From IMG/VR virus record IMGVR_UViG_3300022900_000928, positions 1 to 20,223 of that record: DNA of 20,223 bases; one strand, given 5' to 3'. This document shows, one piece after another, positions 1,322 through 11,698 of the stretch. This stretch comes from a virus. The position numbers were made by a program, and so were the translations under genes. Positions within the stretch are counted from its first letter, which is position 1. Each line of letters starts with the position of its first letter. Under the pieces are notes generated by a model. The model saw only the letters and a program-made list of their open reading frames with translations, did not search any database and was not told the origin of the DNA.

Positions 1322-1900
1322 ATGTCCAAAAAGGAAAATGTTCATTATGTAAATAATGCTCAATTCTCACAATCCGTGGTTGATTATGTGACCTTGGTAA
1401 GAGAAGCAGAGAAAGATAATAATCCAATTCCGATAGTACCTAACTATATTGCAGAATGTTTCCTGCGTATTTCTGAGGGTCTGTCACACAAATCAAACTT
1501 TATTCGTTACACATACCGTGAGGAAATGGTAATGGATGGAGTTGAAAACTGCCTCAAAGCTATTCTGAATTATAATTTGGAAACCGCAACGCGTACTGGC
1601 AGACCTAATGCATTTGCCTACTTCACACAGATTGTATGGTATGCATTTCTTCGCAGGATTGCCAAAGAGAAAAAACAACAGGACATTAAAATGTCTTACC
1701 TGTCCAAGGTTAATGTTGAAGATCTTATGGGTGCGGGTGAAGAAGACTTTGTCCAAACAGAACACATTGTTGAAGCTATCCGTCAGCGTATTGGTCGTAT
1801 TAGGGAAACCGATAACCAAATTAAAATATACGCTAAAGAAGAGAAAAAGAAACGTAAGAATAAAAACCAAGATTCTGATTTGAGTGACTTTTTAGAATGA
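1322..1900 (+). CDS. 55: late-gene sigma factor gp55
   Basis: RNA polymerase sigma factor that directs host polymerase to late promoters (TATAAATA in T4) and couples late transcription to replication through the sliding clamp. The 192-aa protein matches T4 gp55 (185 aa) along its length: the YVNN start, an I-x-E-G-L-S segment near residue 50, the YREEMVMDG helix near 65-73, and the AYFTQIVWYAFLRRIAKEKK core helix near residues 99-118, which corresponds to sigma region 2. The final residues D-L-S-D-F-L-E resemble the T4 gp55 tail that binds gp45. Strong AAAGGAG site 6 bases before ATG and its own promoter. It heads the 55-47-46 unit, with gene 47 overlapping by ATGA. Confidence 0.95.
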   Translation: MSKKENVHYVNNAQFSQSVVDYVTLVREAEKDNNPIPIVPNYIAECFLRISEGLSHKSNFIRYTYREEMVMDGVENCLKAILNYNLETATRTGRPNAFAYFTQIVWYAFLRRIAKEKKQQDIKMSYLSKVNVEDLMGAGEEDFVQTEHIVEAIRQRIGRIRETDNQIKIYAKEEKKKRKNKNQDSDLSDFLE

Positions 1901-5421: not shown

Positions 5422-6099
5422 ATGGAACTAAGCGACAACACTCTCACAATTCTCAAGAACTTCTCTGGTATTAATCAGAATCTAATGGTTCGCGAGGGCA
5501 ATACGGTCAAGACTATGTCTGAGGCCCGTAACATCATGGCATCAGCAGATGTCACTGAAACTTTTCCACAAACATTCGGCGTCTATGATCTGAATGAATT
5601 CATCAGTGTCTTGGATTTGGTTGATAAACCACAGCTCAATTTCAATGAAAGTTATGTAGTCATTGGTGATACCGCTGGCCGATCCAAAGTTAAATACTTT
5701 TTCTCACCTGAGGAAACCCTTACCACACCAAGTAAGGATATCAAGATGCCAGAGTCCGAGGTTAAGTTTGAACTGACCACTGATACACTGACTAAATTGA
5801 AACGCGCTGCTTCTGCCTTGGGTCACTCAGATGTGTCCATCACAGGTAAGAATGGTGTGCTAAACTTTGCCGTTGTTGATAGTGCCAACTCTACATCGAA
5901 TACATATTCTATTGATGTTGATGGTGAGTTTGCGGCAGATGCAACTTTTAACTTTATTATGAATATTGGTAACCTAAAGATTGTCCCAGGCGATTATGAC
6001 GTCTCAATCTCTTCCAAACTCATTTCCCATTTTCAACATAAAAAACTTAATGTGCAATATTGGATTGCACTAGAGAAATCATCTACATTTGGAGCTTAA
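5422..6099 (+). CDS. 45: DNA polymerase sliding clamp gp45
   Basis: Trimeric ring that holds gp43 on DNA and, in T4, also activates late transcription with gp55 and gp33. The 225-aa length matches T4 gp45 (228 aa). The N-terminal L-S-x-N-T-x-x-I-L-K-N-F segment, the V-Y-D-L-N-E-F-I segment near residue 55, the F-N-F-I-M-N-I-x-N-L-K-I-x-P-G-D-Y stretch near 176-192, and the C-terminal W-I-A-L-E-K-S-S-T all align with T4 gp45. The ribosome site AGGA lies 7 bases before ATG, and the gene has its own strong promoter, as expected for an abundant replication protein. No oddities. Confidence 0.95.
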   Translation: MELSDNTLTILKNFSGINQNLMVREGNTVKTMSEARNIMASADVTETFPQTFGVYDLNEFISVLDLVDKPQLNFNESYVVIGDTAGRSKVKYFFSPEETLTTPSKDIKMPESEVKFELTTDTLTKLKRAASALGHSDVSITGKNGVLNFAVVDSANSTSNTYSIDVDGEFAADATFNFIMNIGNLKIVPGDYDVSISSKLISHFQHKKLNVQYWIALEKSSTFGA

Positions 6100-8690: not shown

Positions 8691-9064
8691 ATCCATTTGA
8701 ATATGTAAATGCCATTAACTTTTCAAAAGAAAATTTAATGGTCGATGATGTGACTGAAAAAGCCTATAATGGTTTTATGGTTAATAGGTCACTGTCATAC
8801 TTTCCAGATACCATCCTTGCTGCCAATGAGATGAATCTTAATCATCATATTGACAAAAAGTTACAACATGACTTTCTTATAAATATTATCAGGAAGCGAA
8901 AACGATTCTCCAAGTGGGAAAAGAAAAAAGCCGACGGTGATGTGGATGTCATAAAAGAGTATTATGGATACAACGATTTAAAGGCGCGTCAAGTACTCGG
9001 CCTACTATCACCTGAACAATTAGAACAATTACATAAAAAGGTGAACAAAGGTGGAAGAAAGTAA
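8687..9064 (+). CDS. 62: clamp loader small subunit gp62
   Basis: Partner of gp44 in the clamp loader. The recognisable region is F-M-V-N-R-S-L-S-Y-F-P-D-T near residues 30-42 followed by A-A-N-E-M-N and R-K-R-K-R-F-S-K-W near 69-77, which line up with FMVENALSQFPE...MN...GKRYGKWAK of T4 gp62. The 125-aa length is well below T4's 187 aa; the T4 N-terminal region is mostly missing, as I recall for marine relatives. It begins by ATGA overlap with the cytidylyltransferase gene and overlaps regA by 14 bases, conserving the T4 order 44-62-regA with extra genes between 44 and 62. Confidence 0.85.
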   Translation: MNPFEYVNAINFSKENLMVDDVTEKAYNGFMVNRSLSYFPDTILAANEMNLNHHIDKKLQHDFLINIIRKRKRFSKWEKKKADGDVDVIKEYYGYNDLKARQVLGLLSPEQLEQLHKKVNKGGRK

Positions 9065-9464
9065 TTTGATTGAATGGACACCCAACTTCATGTTGGAAGT
9101 CGCCTTAAATGAACCGGACGATTTTTTAAAGATCCGGGAAACCCTTACTCGTATTGGTGTAGCATCTCGTAAAGATAAAAAGCTATATCAGTCATGTCAT
9201 ATACTGCACAAGCAGGGTAGATATTTTATAGTTCATTTTAAAGAACTATTTCTACTTGATGGTAAGAAATCTAATCTGGAAGAGAATGATATTGCTCGTA
9301 GGAATACAATCGCTACTTTGATGAGCGACTGGGGCCTGTTAACTATTGAGCAAAAATCTGCAGCACAACCTGTTGCACCTCTACGTCAGATTAAAATTAT
9401 TCCTTATAAAGAAAAGAACGAATGGGAATTATGTCCGAAGTATAATATCGGAAATAAAGTTTAA
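9051..9464 (+). CDS. regA: RegA translational repressor
   Basis: RNA-binding protein that represses translation of many early phage mRNAs, in T4 including those for gp44, gp45 and itself, by covering the start region. Identity is clear from D-D-F-L-K-I-R-E-T-L-T-R-I-G, L-Y-Q-S-C-H-I-L-H-K-Q-G-R-Y, V-H-F-K-E, D-W-G-L-L and the end W-E-L-C-P-K-Y-N-I-G-N, all matching T4 RegA (122 aa). The start is uncertain: GTG 9051 has an AAGGTG site upstream and gives 137 aa, while ATG 9090 gives 124 aa that aligns directly with the T4 N terminus (M-L-E-V against M-I-E-I). It overlaps gene 62. Confidence 0.93.
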   Translation: MEESNLIEWTPNFMLEVALNEPDDFLKIRETLTRIGVASRKDKKLYQSCHILHKQGRYFIVHFKELFLLDGKKSNLEENDIARRNTIATLMSDWGLLTIEQKSAAQPVAPLRQIKIIPYKEKNEWELCPKYNIGNKV

Positions 9465-9473
9465 TATTTTTTA

Positions 9474-10088
9474 ATGCGACAGTCGTCTTTTTTTACACGA
9501 GACTATTCAATTAATCTTGATATTAGTAATAAATGTACTCTGGTCTGTCCAAAATGTATCAGAGCTAGATATAATTCTGCCGGTTTAGAAATACCAGGAG
9601 AAGAACTTTCTTTAGATAGTTATTATAAAATAATTAATCACTTTAAATATCTTATCTTCTGTGGACAAACATCAGATCCTACAATGCATACCCAGTTTCA
9701 TAAATTATTAGAAATAGCATATGAACGAGGTGTTTACTTGGAAGTACACGTTGCGGCATCCCATAGACCAATAGAATGGTTTGAGAAAGCATTTGACATA
9801 AATCCTAATACGAAATGGTGTTTTGGTATTGATGGTTTACCAAATTCTAGCCATCAATATAGAAAAAGACAGGATGGTAAAAAAATATTTGATATGATGT
9901 GCCGAGCTCGTGAAAAGGGGTTATACTGTGTGTGGCAATATATTATATTTGCTTATAATGAAAATGAAATAGAAAAGGCTAGAAACCTAGCTGCGGAAAA
10001 AAATATAGAATTTCATCTGGTAAAATCTTCAAGATTTTTAAAAAAAGATACATATAAACCATCAAGTAATAATTACATCAGCCGATAA
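9474..10088 (+). CDS. radical SAM protein, N-terminal (catalytic) ORF
   Basis: 204 aa. The C-x3-C-x2-C cluster motif of radical SAM enzymes (C21, C25, C28) ligates the 4Fe-4S that cleaves S-adenosylmethionine. Later segments fit a partial TIM barrel: L-I-F-C-G-Q-T-S-D-P near 61 and W-C-F-G-I-D-G-L near 122. Substrate unknown. It ends at TAA and, after 2 bases, an ORF in a different frame continues with a cysteine-rich domain, so enzyme and auxiliary-cluster domains are split. The gene is clearly AT-rich (AGA, ATA, TTA codons) compared with regA upstream and hsp20 downstream, like the PP-loop gene, suggesting transfer. No ribosome site upstream of ATG 9474. Confidence 0.82.
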   Translation: MRQSSFFTRDYSINLDISNKCTLVCPKCIRARYNSAGLEIPGEELSLDSYYKIINHFKYLIFCGQTSDPTMHTQFHKLLEIAYERGVYLEVHVAASHRPIEWFEKAFDINPNTKWCFGIDGLPNSSHQYRKRQDGKKIFDMMCRAREKGLYCVWQYIIFAYNENEIEKARNLAAEKNIEFHLVKSSRFLKKDTYKPSSNNYISR

Positions 10089-10090
10089 TT

Positions 10091-10393
10091 ATGTTGATTC
10101 CTAAGTGTATAAAAAACAATAAAGAATTTGGTCATTCTTCTCAGGGTTATCTATTGCCGTGTTGTTGGTGTGATAATCATTTCAAATCTATGTCAGACCC
10201 GGTATTTAATGCTTTATTTGATGAGGAGTTAAAATTAACCAACGTTAATAATATTAGTGATATATTACTATCTGATCAATGGTTAGCTTTTGAACAAGCA
10301 ATAAATGGTGATATAAAAAATGCACCACAGATTTGCAAGGAAAAATGTGGAAGTTTATCCAACACCAAAGTAATTGAAATTAATCCTATATAA
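10091..10393 (+). CDS. SPASM-like cysteine-rich domain, C-terminal half of split radical SAM protein
   Basis: 100 aa with C6, a L-L-P-C-C-W-C-D segment (C24, C25, C27) and C82-x3-C86-G near the end, the arrangement of an auxiliary iron-sulphur domain (SPASM/twitch type) that normally follows a radical SAM barrel in one chain. It starts 2 bases after the stop of the preceding ORF (TAATTATG), allowing reinitiation. Its frame is closed upstream by TAA at 10067 and 10070, so if the two were once one gene the indel lies between about 10073 and 10087. It may be a natural two-subunit form, a recent frameshift, or a sequencing error. Confidence 0.7.
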   Translation: MLIPKCIKNNKEFGHSSQGYLLPCCWCDNHFKSMSDPVFNALFDEELKLTNVNNISDILLSDQWLAFEQAINGDIKNAPQICKEKCGSLSNTKVIEINPI

Positions 10394-10491
10394 TAAATCC
10401 CACCTTAGGGCCGTTGTGATACAAACGGTAAAAATGTATCCGAACAATTGGACTGGCACTCGATAGTTGTCCCTGTATAAAGTAAGCAGGA
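10394..10491. other. intergenic stretch before hsp20, no gene seen
   Basis: No ORF or tRNA. A small hairpin can form from CCGTT (10412-10416) and AACGG near 10425-10429. A weak sigma-70-like pair CTGGCA (10453-10458), 17 bases, TATAAA (10476-10481) may give early expression of hsp20 but is not convincing. Confidence 0.4.
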
Positions 10492-10499
10492 TATAAATA
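10492..10499 (+). promoter_or_regulatory. T4-type late promoter for hsp20
   Basis: A perfect TATAAATA, the T4 late -10 consensus recognised by gp55, which is encoded in this window. It lies in non-coding DNA 63 bases before hsp20, and the expected start near 10505 falls exactly at the first base of the leader hairpin. I found no other intergenic copy of the octamer in the window. Confidence 0.75.
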
Positions 10500-10504
10500 G
10501 AATT

Positions 10505-10562
10505 GGATGCCGAATAATCGGGTCCATAACTACAACCTTGCTTTTATTAGGAGGTCATAACT
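10505..10562 (+). promoter_or_regulatory. candidate ROSE-like RNA thermometer in the hsp20 leader
   Basis: Two hairpins. The first pairs GGA/TCC and CCGA/TCGG around an ATAA loop (10505-10525), with a T-G wobble and one bulged G. The second pairs ACCTT (10535-10539) and CT (10541-10542) with the Shine-Dalgarno segment AGGAGGT (10549-10555), leaving G10540 bulged and TTTATT as loop. The strand opposite the ribosome site contains TTGCT, the U(U/C)GCU signature of ROSE elements, which repress small heat-shock genes in proteobacteria until the temperature rises. Function is inferred from this pairing and the gene downstream. Confidence 0.6.
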
Positions 10563-11045
10563 ATGACACATTTTAAGTTGCCACGCTCGGCATTTATTGG
10601 TTTTGATAATATCTTTGATGAGTTGGATAAATTATCCAATGCCACAACAGATAACTATCCGCCACATAATATCCTCAAACTTTCCGAAAACAAATATGCA
10701 ATTGAACTTGCTGTTGTGGGATTCAAAGAGAGTGATCTCGAACTCAATCAACAGGATGGTATTTTGCATGTCATTGGTGATAAGGCCAGTACTTATTTGC
10801 CCACTGACTATTTGCATAGGGGAATTTCAGGAAGATCCTTTAAGCGTTCCTTTCGACTGTCTGAACATGTAGAAGTAAAAGGAGCTAATCTAAGGGACGG
10901 ACTGCTCGTCATTGAACTAGAGAGAGTCATCCCGCAAGAAAAGCGTCCACGACTGATTCCTATTAATCAACACGTGGAGAACACACATGACACAAATCAA
11001 AGCAATCCTCAGTTTCTTTCAGAGAGGTCTCAACAACTTGCTTGA
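10563..11045 (+). CDS. hsp20: small heat-shock protein Hsp20 (IbpA-like)
   Basis: ATP-independent chaperone that holds unfolding proteins. The 160-aa protein has an IbpA-like opening (R-S-A-F-I-G-F-D-N-I-F-D), an alpha-crystallin domain from about residue 38 to 125 with the A-N-L-R-D-G-L-L-V-I-E-L signature, and a C-terminal I-P-I anchor (R-L-I-P-I) for oligomer assembly. The last ~25 residues (after I-P-I) are polar and overlap the next gene, so they may be shaped by overprinting. A strong AGGAGG ribosome site 8 bases before ATG is predicted to be masked by a leader hairpin. Hsp20 genes are common in marine T4-like phages, where a virion-assembly role is proposed. Confidence 0.94.
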   Translation: MTHFKLPRSAFIGFDNIFDELDKLSNATTDNYPPHNILKLSENKYAIELAVVGFKESDLELNQQDGILHVIGDKASTYLPTDYLHRGISGRSFKRSFRLSEHVEVKGANLRDGLLVIELERVIPQEKRPRLIPINQHVENTHDTNQSNPQFLSERSQQLA

Positions 11046-11169
11046 AGGCCTTATTCAAGCCCGCCAAAAACAAGTGGAAGCCTATTTGGCCCGCTCTGTT
11101 GACTTGGCAGACTTGGAAAGACGTATGAAAGAAGTTTCCAAAGAAGGTATTTCTTACCCTCGTTGGTGA
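10987..11169 (+). CDS. DUF3563-like small protein overlapping hsp20
   Basis: 60 aa. The segment E-A-Y-L-A-R-S-V-D-L-A-D-L-E-R-R-M-K matches, from memory, the core of DUF3563, a family of short proteins from proteobacteria with no known function. It has an amphipathic helical N terminus (I-L-S-F-F-Q-R-G-L-N-N-L-L). ATG 10987 is supported by GGAGA (10976-10980) 6 bases upstream, and it overlaps the last 59 bases of hsp20 in another frame. No later ATG would leave the core intact. A host origin is plausible. Confidence 0.75.
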   Translation: MTQIKAILSFFQRGLNNLLEGLIQARQKQVEAYLARSVDLADLERRMKEVSKEGISYPRW

Positions 11170-11255: not shown

Positions 11256-11465
11256 ATGTTCACACCCAACTTTTACATCGATCAATTTCAAGCAACAAAG
11301 AAAATTGTTGCAGATCAAATCTTCAAAGACCAACCTGAGTTACAAGAAGTAGCAGTCAAGTTTATTGATACACAAACCGCATTTGCAAAAATGCTTGTTG
11401 ATAATACTGTTACAGTTAACAAATTCTTTTGGGATAAAGCCACTGCTTTTACCAAAGTTAAATAA
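11256..11465 (+). CDS. phasin-like small helical protein A
   Basis: 69 aa, predicted as two amphipathic helices: Y-I-D-Q-F-Q-A-T-K-K-I-V-A-D-Q-I-F near the start and F-I-D-T-Q-T-A-F-A-K-M-L-V-D-N-T-V-T-V-N from residue 36. The size, regular F/V spacing and lack of Cys resemble phasins, proteins that coat polyhydroxyalkanoate granules in proteobacteria, but this is a weak resemblance and the function is open. AGGAG (11244-11248) lies 7 bases before ATG. It is paired with a second similar protein 11 bases downstream, sharing an F-W/Y plus K-A-T end (K-A-T-A-F against K-A-T-E-F), so the two may be diverged duplicates acting together. Confidence 0.7.
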   Translation: MFTPNFYIDQFQATKKIVADQIFKDQPELQEVAVKFIDTQTAFAKMLVDNTVTVNKFFWDKATAFTKVK

Positions 11466-11476
11466 TGGAGAATATT

Positions 11477-11698
11477 ATGAGCAATAAAAACCCCTTTGAA
11501 ATTCGCACCGAGATGCTTTCTATGGCTAAAGACTATATGGACCGTGCTTGGGAAATGAATTATATGTTCACTCAACAAATGTTTGATCAAGGTAAGAAGA
11601 CTACTGAAGAAATGCAGTCAGCTTTGAAACCGTATTCAACTGAGGAACTGATGAAGAAAGCTACGGAATTTTATTCCTTCGTCTCTAAAAAAGATTAA
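11477..11698 (+). CDS. phasin-like small helical protein B
   Basis: 73 aa, mostly helix, rich in M, E and K: F-E-I-R-T-E-M-L-S-M-A-K-D-Y-M-D-R-A-W-E-M-N, then F-T-Q-Q-M-F-D-Q-G-K-K-T-T-E-E-M. The N-P-F-E opening and long amphipathic helix recall phasin N termini; not certain. ATG 11477 is chosen because GGAG (11467-11470) is 6 bases upstream; the in-frame ATG at 11465 would lie on that ribosome site. A hairpin terminator follows 6 bases after the stop, so this gene ends the hsp20/phasin unit. Confidence 0.72.
   Translation: MSNKNPFEIRTEMLSMAKDYMDRAWEMNYMFTQQMFDQGKKTTEEMQSALKPYSTEELMKKATEFYSFVSKKD

Follow-up and report, generated by a model that had tools for sequence, protein, structure and literature searches.

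A probable ROSE-type RNA thermometer precedes hsp20 in a T4-like marine phage, and its leader structure recurs across phage hsp20 genes

The leader of the hsp20 gene in a T4-like marine phage is likely a short, two-hairpin ROSE RNA thermometer of the Pseudomonas (ROSE_3) type that is transcribed from a late promoter, with the response to temperature being inferred. The structure of this leader, its conservation with compensatory change, its homology to bacterial ROSE elements and the placement of its promoter are observed directly. The initial annotation of this DNA, in which a phage late promoter was joined to a ROSE-like leader, is largely supported, and the finding is far wider than one phage. 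The window (the whole stretch of DNA that was analysed, 20.2 kb in length) is the virus record of a T4-like marine phage (Kyanoviridae-like); in addition to the features listed here, it carries genes for a gp44-type clamp loader and a family B DNA polymerase, and the gene order around hsp20 agrees with that of phage C48C1 (Kyanoviridae). A search of the window for tRNAs found none.

1322-1900, plus strand: gp55-like late sigma factor gene (phrog_234, E 2.8e-49)
5422-6099, plus strand: gp45-like sliding clamp gene (phrog_223, E 1.4e-74)
9051-9464: regA-type gene (phrog_242)
10492-10499, plus strand: T4-type late promoter element TATAAATA (position, spacing in relatives, gp55 and gp45 genes in the window)
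10504-10526, plus strand: ROSE hairpin I, UGGAU(G)CCGA-AUAA-UCGGGUCCA, with the wobble U10508.G10522 and bulged G10509 (Rfam, fold, covariation)
10535-10555, plus strand: ROSE hairpin II, ACCUU(G)CU-UUUAUU-AGGAGGU, with bulged G10540 (Rfam, fold, covariation, scan)
10549-10555, plus strand: Shine-Dalgarno (SD) sequence AGGAGGU, all paired in hairpin II, 7 nt from the AUG (sequence and fold)
10554-10567, plus strand: possible start-codon mini-hairpin GUCAU-AACU-AUGAC (fold; weak)
10563-11045, plus strand: hsp20, encoding an IbpA-like small heat shock protein of 160 aa (PF00011, E 8.3e-15; phrog_432, E 2.3e-36)

The whole leader unit, consisting of the promoter and the two hairpins, spans 10492-10565, and the minimum-energy fold of 10504-10565 is exactly hairpins I and II. 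The perfect TATAAATA motif, the hairpin at about the expected start site, and the second hairpin pairing ACCTT-(G)-CT with AGGAGGT around one bulged G and a 6-nt loop (TTTATT) had all been described in the initial annotation and were confirmed, as was the TTGCT at the place typical of ROSE elements, which lies at 10538-10542 within the anti-SD strand. The leader shows what is expected of a ROSE element: it forms the 5' UTR of a small heat shock gene (PF00011, phrog_432), its SD sequence is paired in a U(U/C)GCU hairpin with a bulged G, and a further hairpin lies upstream in the same leader. Taken alone, however, the window is weak evidence and does not prove the ROSE case, because the fold scores only z -1.57 against shuffled sequences (19 of 200 shuffles were equally good) and TATAAATA occurs close to its chance count (3 observed, 2.0 expected); on present evidence, it is the comparison across phages that does. 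The 98 bases 5' of the promoter (10394-10491) showed no structure beyond that of shuffles (z -0.19). The mini-hairpin at 10554-10567, which competes with the base of hairpin II, is found in the AGGAGGUC leader group only, and the near-constant ATGAC makes a compensatory test of it impossible.

Searching phage records with the region at the DNA level found nothing, and protein searches were therefore used, yielding 424 hsp20 loci from five viral-contig scans and 23 named records. As these loci were collected by searching for hsp20 and some are near-duplicates, distinct sequences were counted; kinship remains, and the trials are not independent. An SD-masking hairpin II, defined as a U[UC]GC...GGA hairpin of at least 6 pairs with all candidate starts allowed, was present before 220 of 224 distinct phage hsp20 genes, compared to 4 of 744 other ORFs of the same loci. 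Hairpin I, for which a strict rule required a [U/C].G pair, a bulged G, a C-G pair and at least 6 pairs, was found with its bulged G in 208 of 215 distinct leaders versus 16 of 4300 shuffles. Among leaders near to that of the window, all 44 distinct sequences contained both hairpin I with the bulged G and the hairpin II core CUU(G)C/GGAG.

The structure of both hairpins is preserved by compensatory change, and the comparison of leaders that had been proposed at the outset revealed that related phages keep the SD pairing while the partners change together. In the 44 near leaders, pair 1 of hairpin II is A-U (24) or U-A (12) and pair 2 is C-G (21) or U-A (22), and at the upper end of this hairpin U-A is swapped for A-U in four leaders; AAC/GUU occurs in C48C1 and GUC/GAC in S-RSM4. 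Positions in hairpin I show up to six pair types, with the bulge-adjacent pair being U.G or C-G, and 7 of its 9 pairs covary. The covariation score was 0.268 for hairpin II (0.101 when shuffled; alignment A1) and 0.556 for the whole element (0.166 when shuffled, and no more than 0.113 with slid partners; alignment A3), and alignment A4, with 95 distinct rows, contained 286 doubly changed cells versus 84.5. Alignments A1 and A3 are plain MAFFT alignments, and A4 was fitted to the model and is thus biased towards it.

The gp55-like sigma factor is the trans-acting partner of the late promoter, and gp45 is a co-activator of late transcription in T4. A T4-type late promoter should combine TATAAATA at start-site distance with a late sigma gene, and the window has both; a sigma-70-like promoter was also looked for before the window's hsp20 gene and none was found. 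Across the loci TATAAATA occurs about 0.23 times per kb. It is present in 97 of the 215 leaders, and in 97/97 the distance from its end to the bulged G of hairpin I is 8-12 nt; this fixed spacing, together with the gp55 and gp45 genes of the window, bears out the earlier claim of phage late transcription. A further 40 of the 215 leaders carry TATATATA at about the same place and others have NATAAATA, TTAAATA, TATAAT or other sequence, such that about half lack TATAAATA. T4 late-promoter spacing places the start of transcription at the base of hairpin I. By this reasoning, the transcript of the window is predicted to begin at about 10504-10505, and the fixed distance between TATAAATA and the bulged G implies that late transcripts should start at hairpin I; the start itself is unmapped.

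The element was identified in C48C1, Melnitz-3 (Melnitz), Mosig, Phosso (469 kb) and PA5oct (287 kb), in the Pelagibacter phages HTVC115P (55 kb) and HTVC103P (54 kb), and in the cyanophages S-CAM3, S-RIM44, S-RIM2, S-RIM8, P-RSM1, S-P4, S-SSM4, Syn2, P-RSM4, P-HM2, S-CAM7, S-SKS1 and ACG-2014f; PA5oct and HTVC103P scored at the low end among these named carriers. In most of the cyanophages sampled, hairpin I has a UUCG loop (e.g., GGAUGCC-UUCG-GGGUCC). S-RSM4 fails the scan, its GUCGCUU/AAGGAC spacer being too short for the rule, and the element is seen by eye; the hsp20 leader of SCTP-2 also fails and has no such hairpin. A phage-only covariance model gave one match per locus, at the hsp20 leader, in 100 of 100 loci, and scans of whole records with this model gave no more than one match per genome, located at the hsp20 leader except in PA5oct. 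The match in PA5oct that is not at hsp20 (284446-284517, minus strand, E 0.006) falls between genes in antisense orientation and was taken to be a chance hit. Stricter filters in the whole-genome run lost several true cyanophage leaders.

A covariance search with the Rfam ROSE models had been recommended in the initial annotation. RF02523 (ROSE_3) matched at 10501-10568 over all 69 positions, covering both hairpins and the AUG, with E-values of 7.3e-6 in a 241-base scan and 1.5e-7 on the whole record; the score of 34.9 bits, however, lies below the gathering score of 43, which the best phage (40.8 bits) also does not reach. At the gathering threshold Rfam therefore reports no match on the leader region, and the match appears by E-value reporting. 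In 40 related virus records RF02523 gave 16 matches at E <= 1, 15 of them at E <= 0.0024, and on the leaders of cyanophages and other phages it matched S-SKS1 alone (27.9 bits, E 0.03). The cut-off is itself narrow, since only one of ten bacterial genomes with ibpA relatives passes it (Pseudomonas, 68.4 bits). RF02523 is too narrow for the leaders of cyanophages and other phages, in which both inspection and a motif scan readily show the motif. There was likewise no RF02523 match on genomes L468, L486 and L457 (Pelagibacteraceae and other alphaproteobacterial), and the model appears to miss marine ROSE elements. The two-hairpin plan of the phage leaders is also seen in the Pelagibacteraceae and other alphaproteobacterial hsp20 leaders L457, L468, L482, L486, L488, L494 and L501.

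Model R1, which was built from 19 phage leaders and no bacterial ones, matched ibpA/hsp20 leaders of Pelagibacteraceae, alphaproteobacteria and Pseudomonas (best E 1.8e-7), as expected if the phage and bacterial leaders share common descent, and the hairpin II scan was passed by 65 of 80 bacterial relatives. Because a phage-only model finds Pelagibacter and Pseudomonas ibpA leaders, the phage element is, judged by sequence comparison, the proteobacterial ROSE leader; together with the full-length RF02523 match and the compensatory changes in relatives, this upholds the ROSE identity first proposed. The Hsp20 protein tree contains approximately five changes between phages and bacteria, and well-supported branches require at least three of them. 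In this tree the Mosig-like proteins cluster with Pelagibacteraceae and a gammaproteobacterium, and Phosso with an alphaproteobacterium (some of these branches are long). The simplest reading of the tree is that there was likely more than one transfer between bacteria and phages, with the leader moving along each time. Thus, of the earlier suggestion that the element came with the gene from the host, a bacterial origin with the gene is supported in general, with no donor identified for the gene in the window.

The proposed mechanism is drawn from the Pseudomonas short ROSE element (RF02523), which has the same two-hairpin plan and for which melting and regulation have been demonstrated, with hairpin I being stable, hairpin II melting on warming, and hairpin II alone being enough; deletion of the G opposite the SD sequence over-stabilises hairpin II (Krajewski et al. 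2013, PMC3669281). In the phage, gp55/gp45-directed polymerase would initiate at the base of hairpin I late in infection. Hairpin I would fold first and remain closed, and by inference from Pseudomonas it may shield the 5' end or steer folding, while hairpin II would cover the whole SD sequence through a helix weakened by the bulged G and the U.G pair. Warming would then open hairpin II gradually and permit more Hsp20 translation in warm or heat-stressed infected cells. The case for such temperature gating rests on homology with the Pseudomonas elements for which probing has been done; for the phage there are no probing, translation or infection data, and the transcript start, the temperature response and any use in infection are inferences only.

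Nearest-neighbour folding in context predicts that the SD sequence of the window is unpaired at 0.13 at 15 °C, 0.29 at 37 °C and 0.40 at 60 °C, and hairpin II at 37 °C is estimated at -4.4 kcal/mol versus -8.0 kcal/mol in P. aeruginosa. A weaker hairpin would suit a colder host, but this is no more than suggestive, given the shallow curves and an energy model that takes no account of the non-canonical pairs in ROSE elements; ViennaRNA melting curves are so coarse that a switch can be neither demonstrated nor ruled out by them. The SD sequence is masked much better by natural 5' arms than by shuffled ones (median unpaired 0.06 versus 0.26 at 25 °C). For several relatives (Melnitz and the AUUCUUGC group), the folding model gives other folds in which the SD sequence is open. 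In the AUUCUUGCUUG group (L023, L024 and L052), the anti-SD strand can pair with hsp20 codons 2-4 (UUGCUUG/CAAGCA), and this alternative fold leaves the SD sequence open in the folding model.

The main rival to the thermometer, or its partner, is autoregulation, in which the ROSE leader is bound by the Hsp20 that it encodes and translation stays repressed until misfolded protein, heat-damaged or phage structural, titrates Hsp20 away, so that the signal is folding load instead of temperature; the two may act jointly. In E. coli, Cedecea and Vibrio, IbpA attaches to the 5' UTR of ibpA via Arg93 and thereby keeps its own translation repressed, and R93K abolished repression in E. coli (PMC10474464). 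The Hsp20 of the window keeps the equivalents of Arg93 (GISGRSF) and Arg97; across the scorable phage loci, however, the Arg93 equivalent is Lys in 167 and Arg in 155, and there are no RNA-binding data for phage Hsp20. Because the leader is kept in Arg and Lys phages alike, control of the R93 type probably does not account for it in general, and autoregulation, which we consider unlikely as the explanation, may contribute. A further reading, unlikely but possible, is that the late-promoter/ROSE unit of marine phages would be a two-condition switch responding mainly to folding load, needing both late mRNA and the release of leader-bound Hsp20 by client titration. Were this so, clients could be, e.g., newly made capsid protein or heat-damaged host protein, and in cyanophages an RNA sensor of proteobacterial origin would be operating within cyanobacterial cells.

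The hairpin could also be a fixed translational attenuator that sets a low level of Hsp20 with no response in the temperature range of the host. Many hosts are marine and exposed to small temperature changes, and the predicted opening is gradual, both of which would fit; an attenuator, however, needs neither the exact U(U/C)GCU/bulged-G architecture nor hairpin I, and these persist across phages whose Hsp20 proteins are approximately 40-50% identical and are common to bacterial thermometers, which leaves the attenuator quite improbable. Binding of the leader by the phage translational repressor RegA is hardly credible: the window has its regA-type gene upstream of hsp20, and regA lies directly before hsp20 in S-RSM4, P-HM2, S-CAM7 and ACG-2014f, but the conserved feature is the ROSE fold, which is found too in bacteria and in HTVC115P without a T4-like setting. 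It is equally hard to sustain that the SD hairpin and TATAAATA are accidents of AT-rich phage DNA; the TATAAATA count and the single-sequence folding energy are unremarkable alone, yet chance is contradicted by the hairpin II and hairpin I counts relative to other ORFs and shuffles and by the strong compensatory change.

Compared to known systems, the RNA is a member of the ROSE kind, and what is new is its phage setting, its late promoter and its near-universality on phage hsp20. Like the window element, the Pseudomonas ibpA short ROSE has two hairpins in a leader of approximately 60 nt before a small heat shock gene, a 3' hairpin that masks the SD sequence with U(U/C)GCU and a bulged G, an AUG that is unpaired in the model, and GAUGCCGAA...CGGGU in hairpin I; in contrast to this sigma-32 system, the window element is phage-encoded and under a phage late promoter, its hairpin II is predicted to be weaker, and its score falls below the Rfam gathering cut-off. 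Classical ROSE elements (ROSE1 of Bradyrhizobium hspA, E. coli ibpA) likewise mask the SD sequence of small heat shock genes with a U(U/C)GCU 3' hairpin, but have three to four hairpins rather than two (PMC3669281).

Phages have so far yielded very few RNA thermometers. Those of lambda cIII and SPbeta blyA, and one proposed for a sigma-70 gene in a gut Caudoviricetes, are likewise temperature-linked RNA structures in phage genes, but none is described as ROSE and none is on a heat shock chaperone; the 2024 paper counted blyA as only the second thermometer in a phage genome and added one candidate (PMC11182007). The same gene family, hsp20, is a core gene of T4-like cyanophages (PMC3037559), and the HspSP-ShM2 protein has been described (PMC5028025); these papers cover gene content or the protein, and a ROSE leader lies on most of the cyanophage hsp20 genes sampled here. 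Term searches in PMC3827213 and PMC5028025 turned up neither a thermometer nor an untranslated leader, and in open-access full texts no earlier description was found of phage ROSE elements or of phage hsp20 genes with an RNA thermometer (other texts are not excluded). ROSE leaders on nearly all sampled phage hsp20 genes, often under a phage late promoter, show a regulatory RNA that moves with its gene between bacteria and phages while the transcriptional input is swapped, and through them temperature or protein-folding stress could influence infection by abundant ocean phages in a way specific enough to be tested.

Several minor observations were also made. The annotated hsp20 starts in S-CAM3, S-CAM7 and S-SSM4 (L084:1465, L418:374 and L413:350, respectively) are probably too far downstream, and the ROSE leader in these phages lies at an upstream in-frame ATG. 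In OQ572409.1 (L086, 'Pseudomonas phage Y7', UNVERIFIED), the hsp20 stretch resembles Pseudomonas aeruginosa ibpA with its ROSE leader, and this record may be host DNA filed as phage. Downstream in the window, two small ORFs (11256-11465 and 11465-11698) are without a family match, and a 60-aa DUF3563 protein (10987-11169, E 3.9e-11) is encoded in another frame overlapping the 3' end of hsp20. Upstream, 9474-10088 encodes a radical SAM domain protein (E 2.6e-6) and the adjoining ORF at 10091-10393 is SPASM iron-sulfur-like (E 0.02); C48C1 has two ORFs at the matching place, and the pair at 9474-10393 is possibly a split radical SAM-SPASM enzyme.
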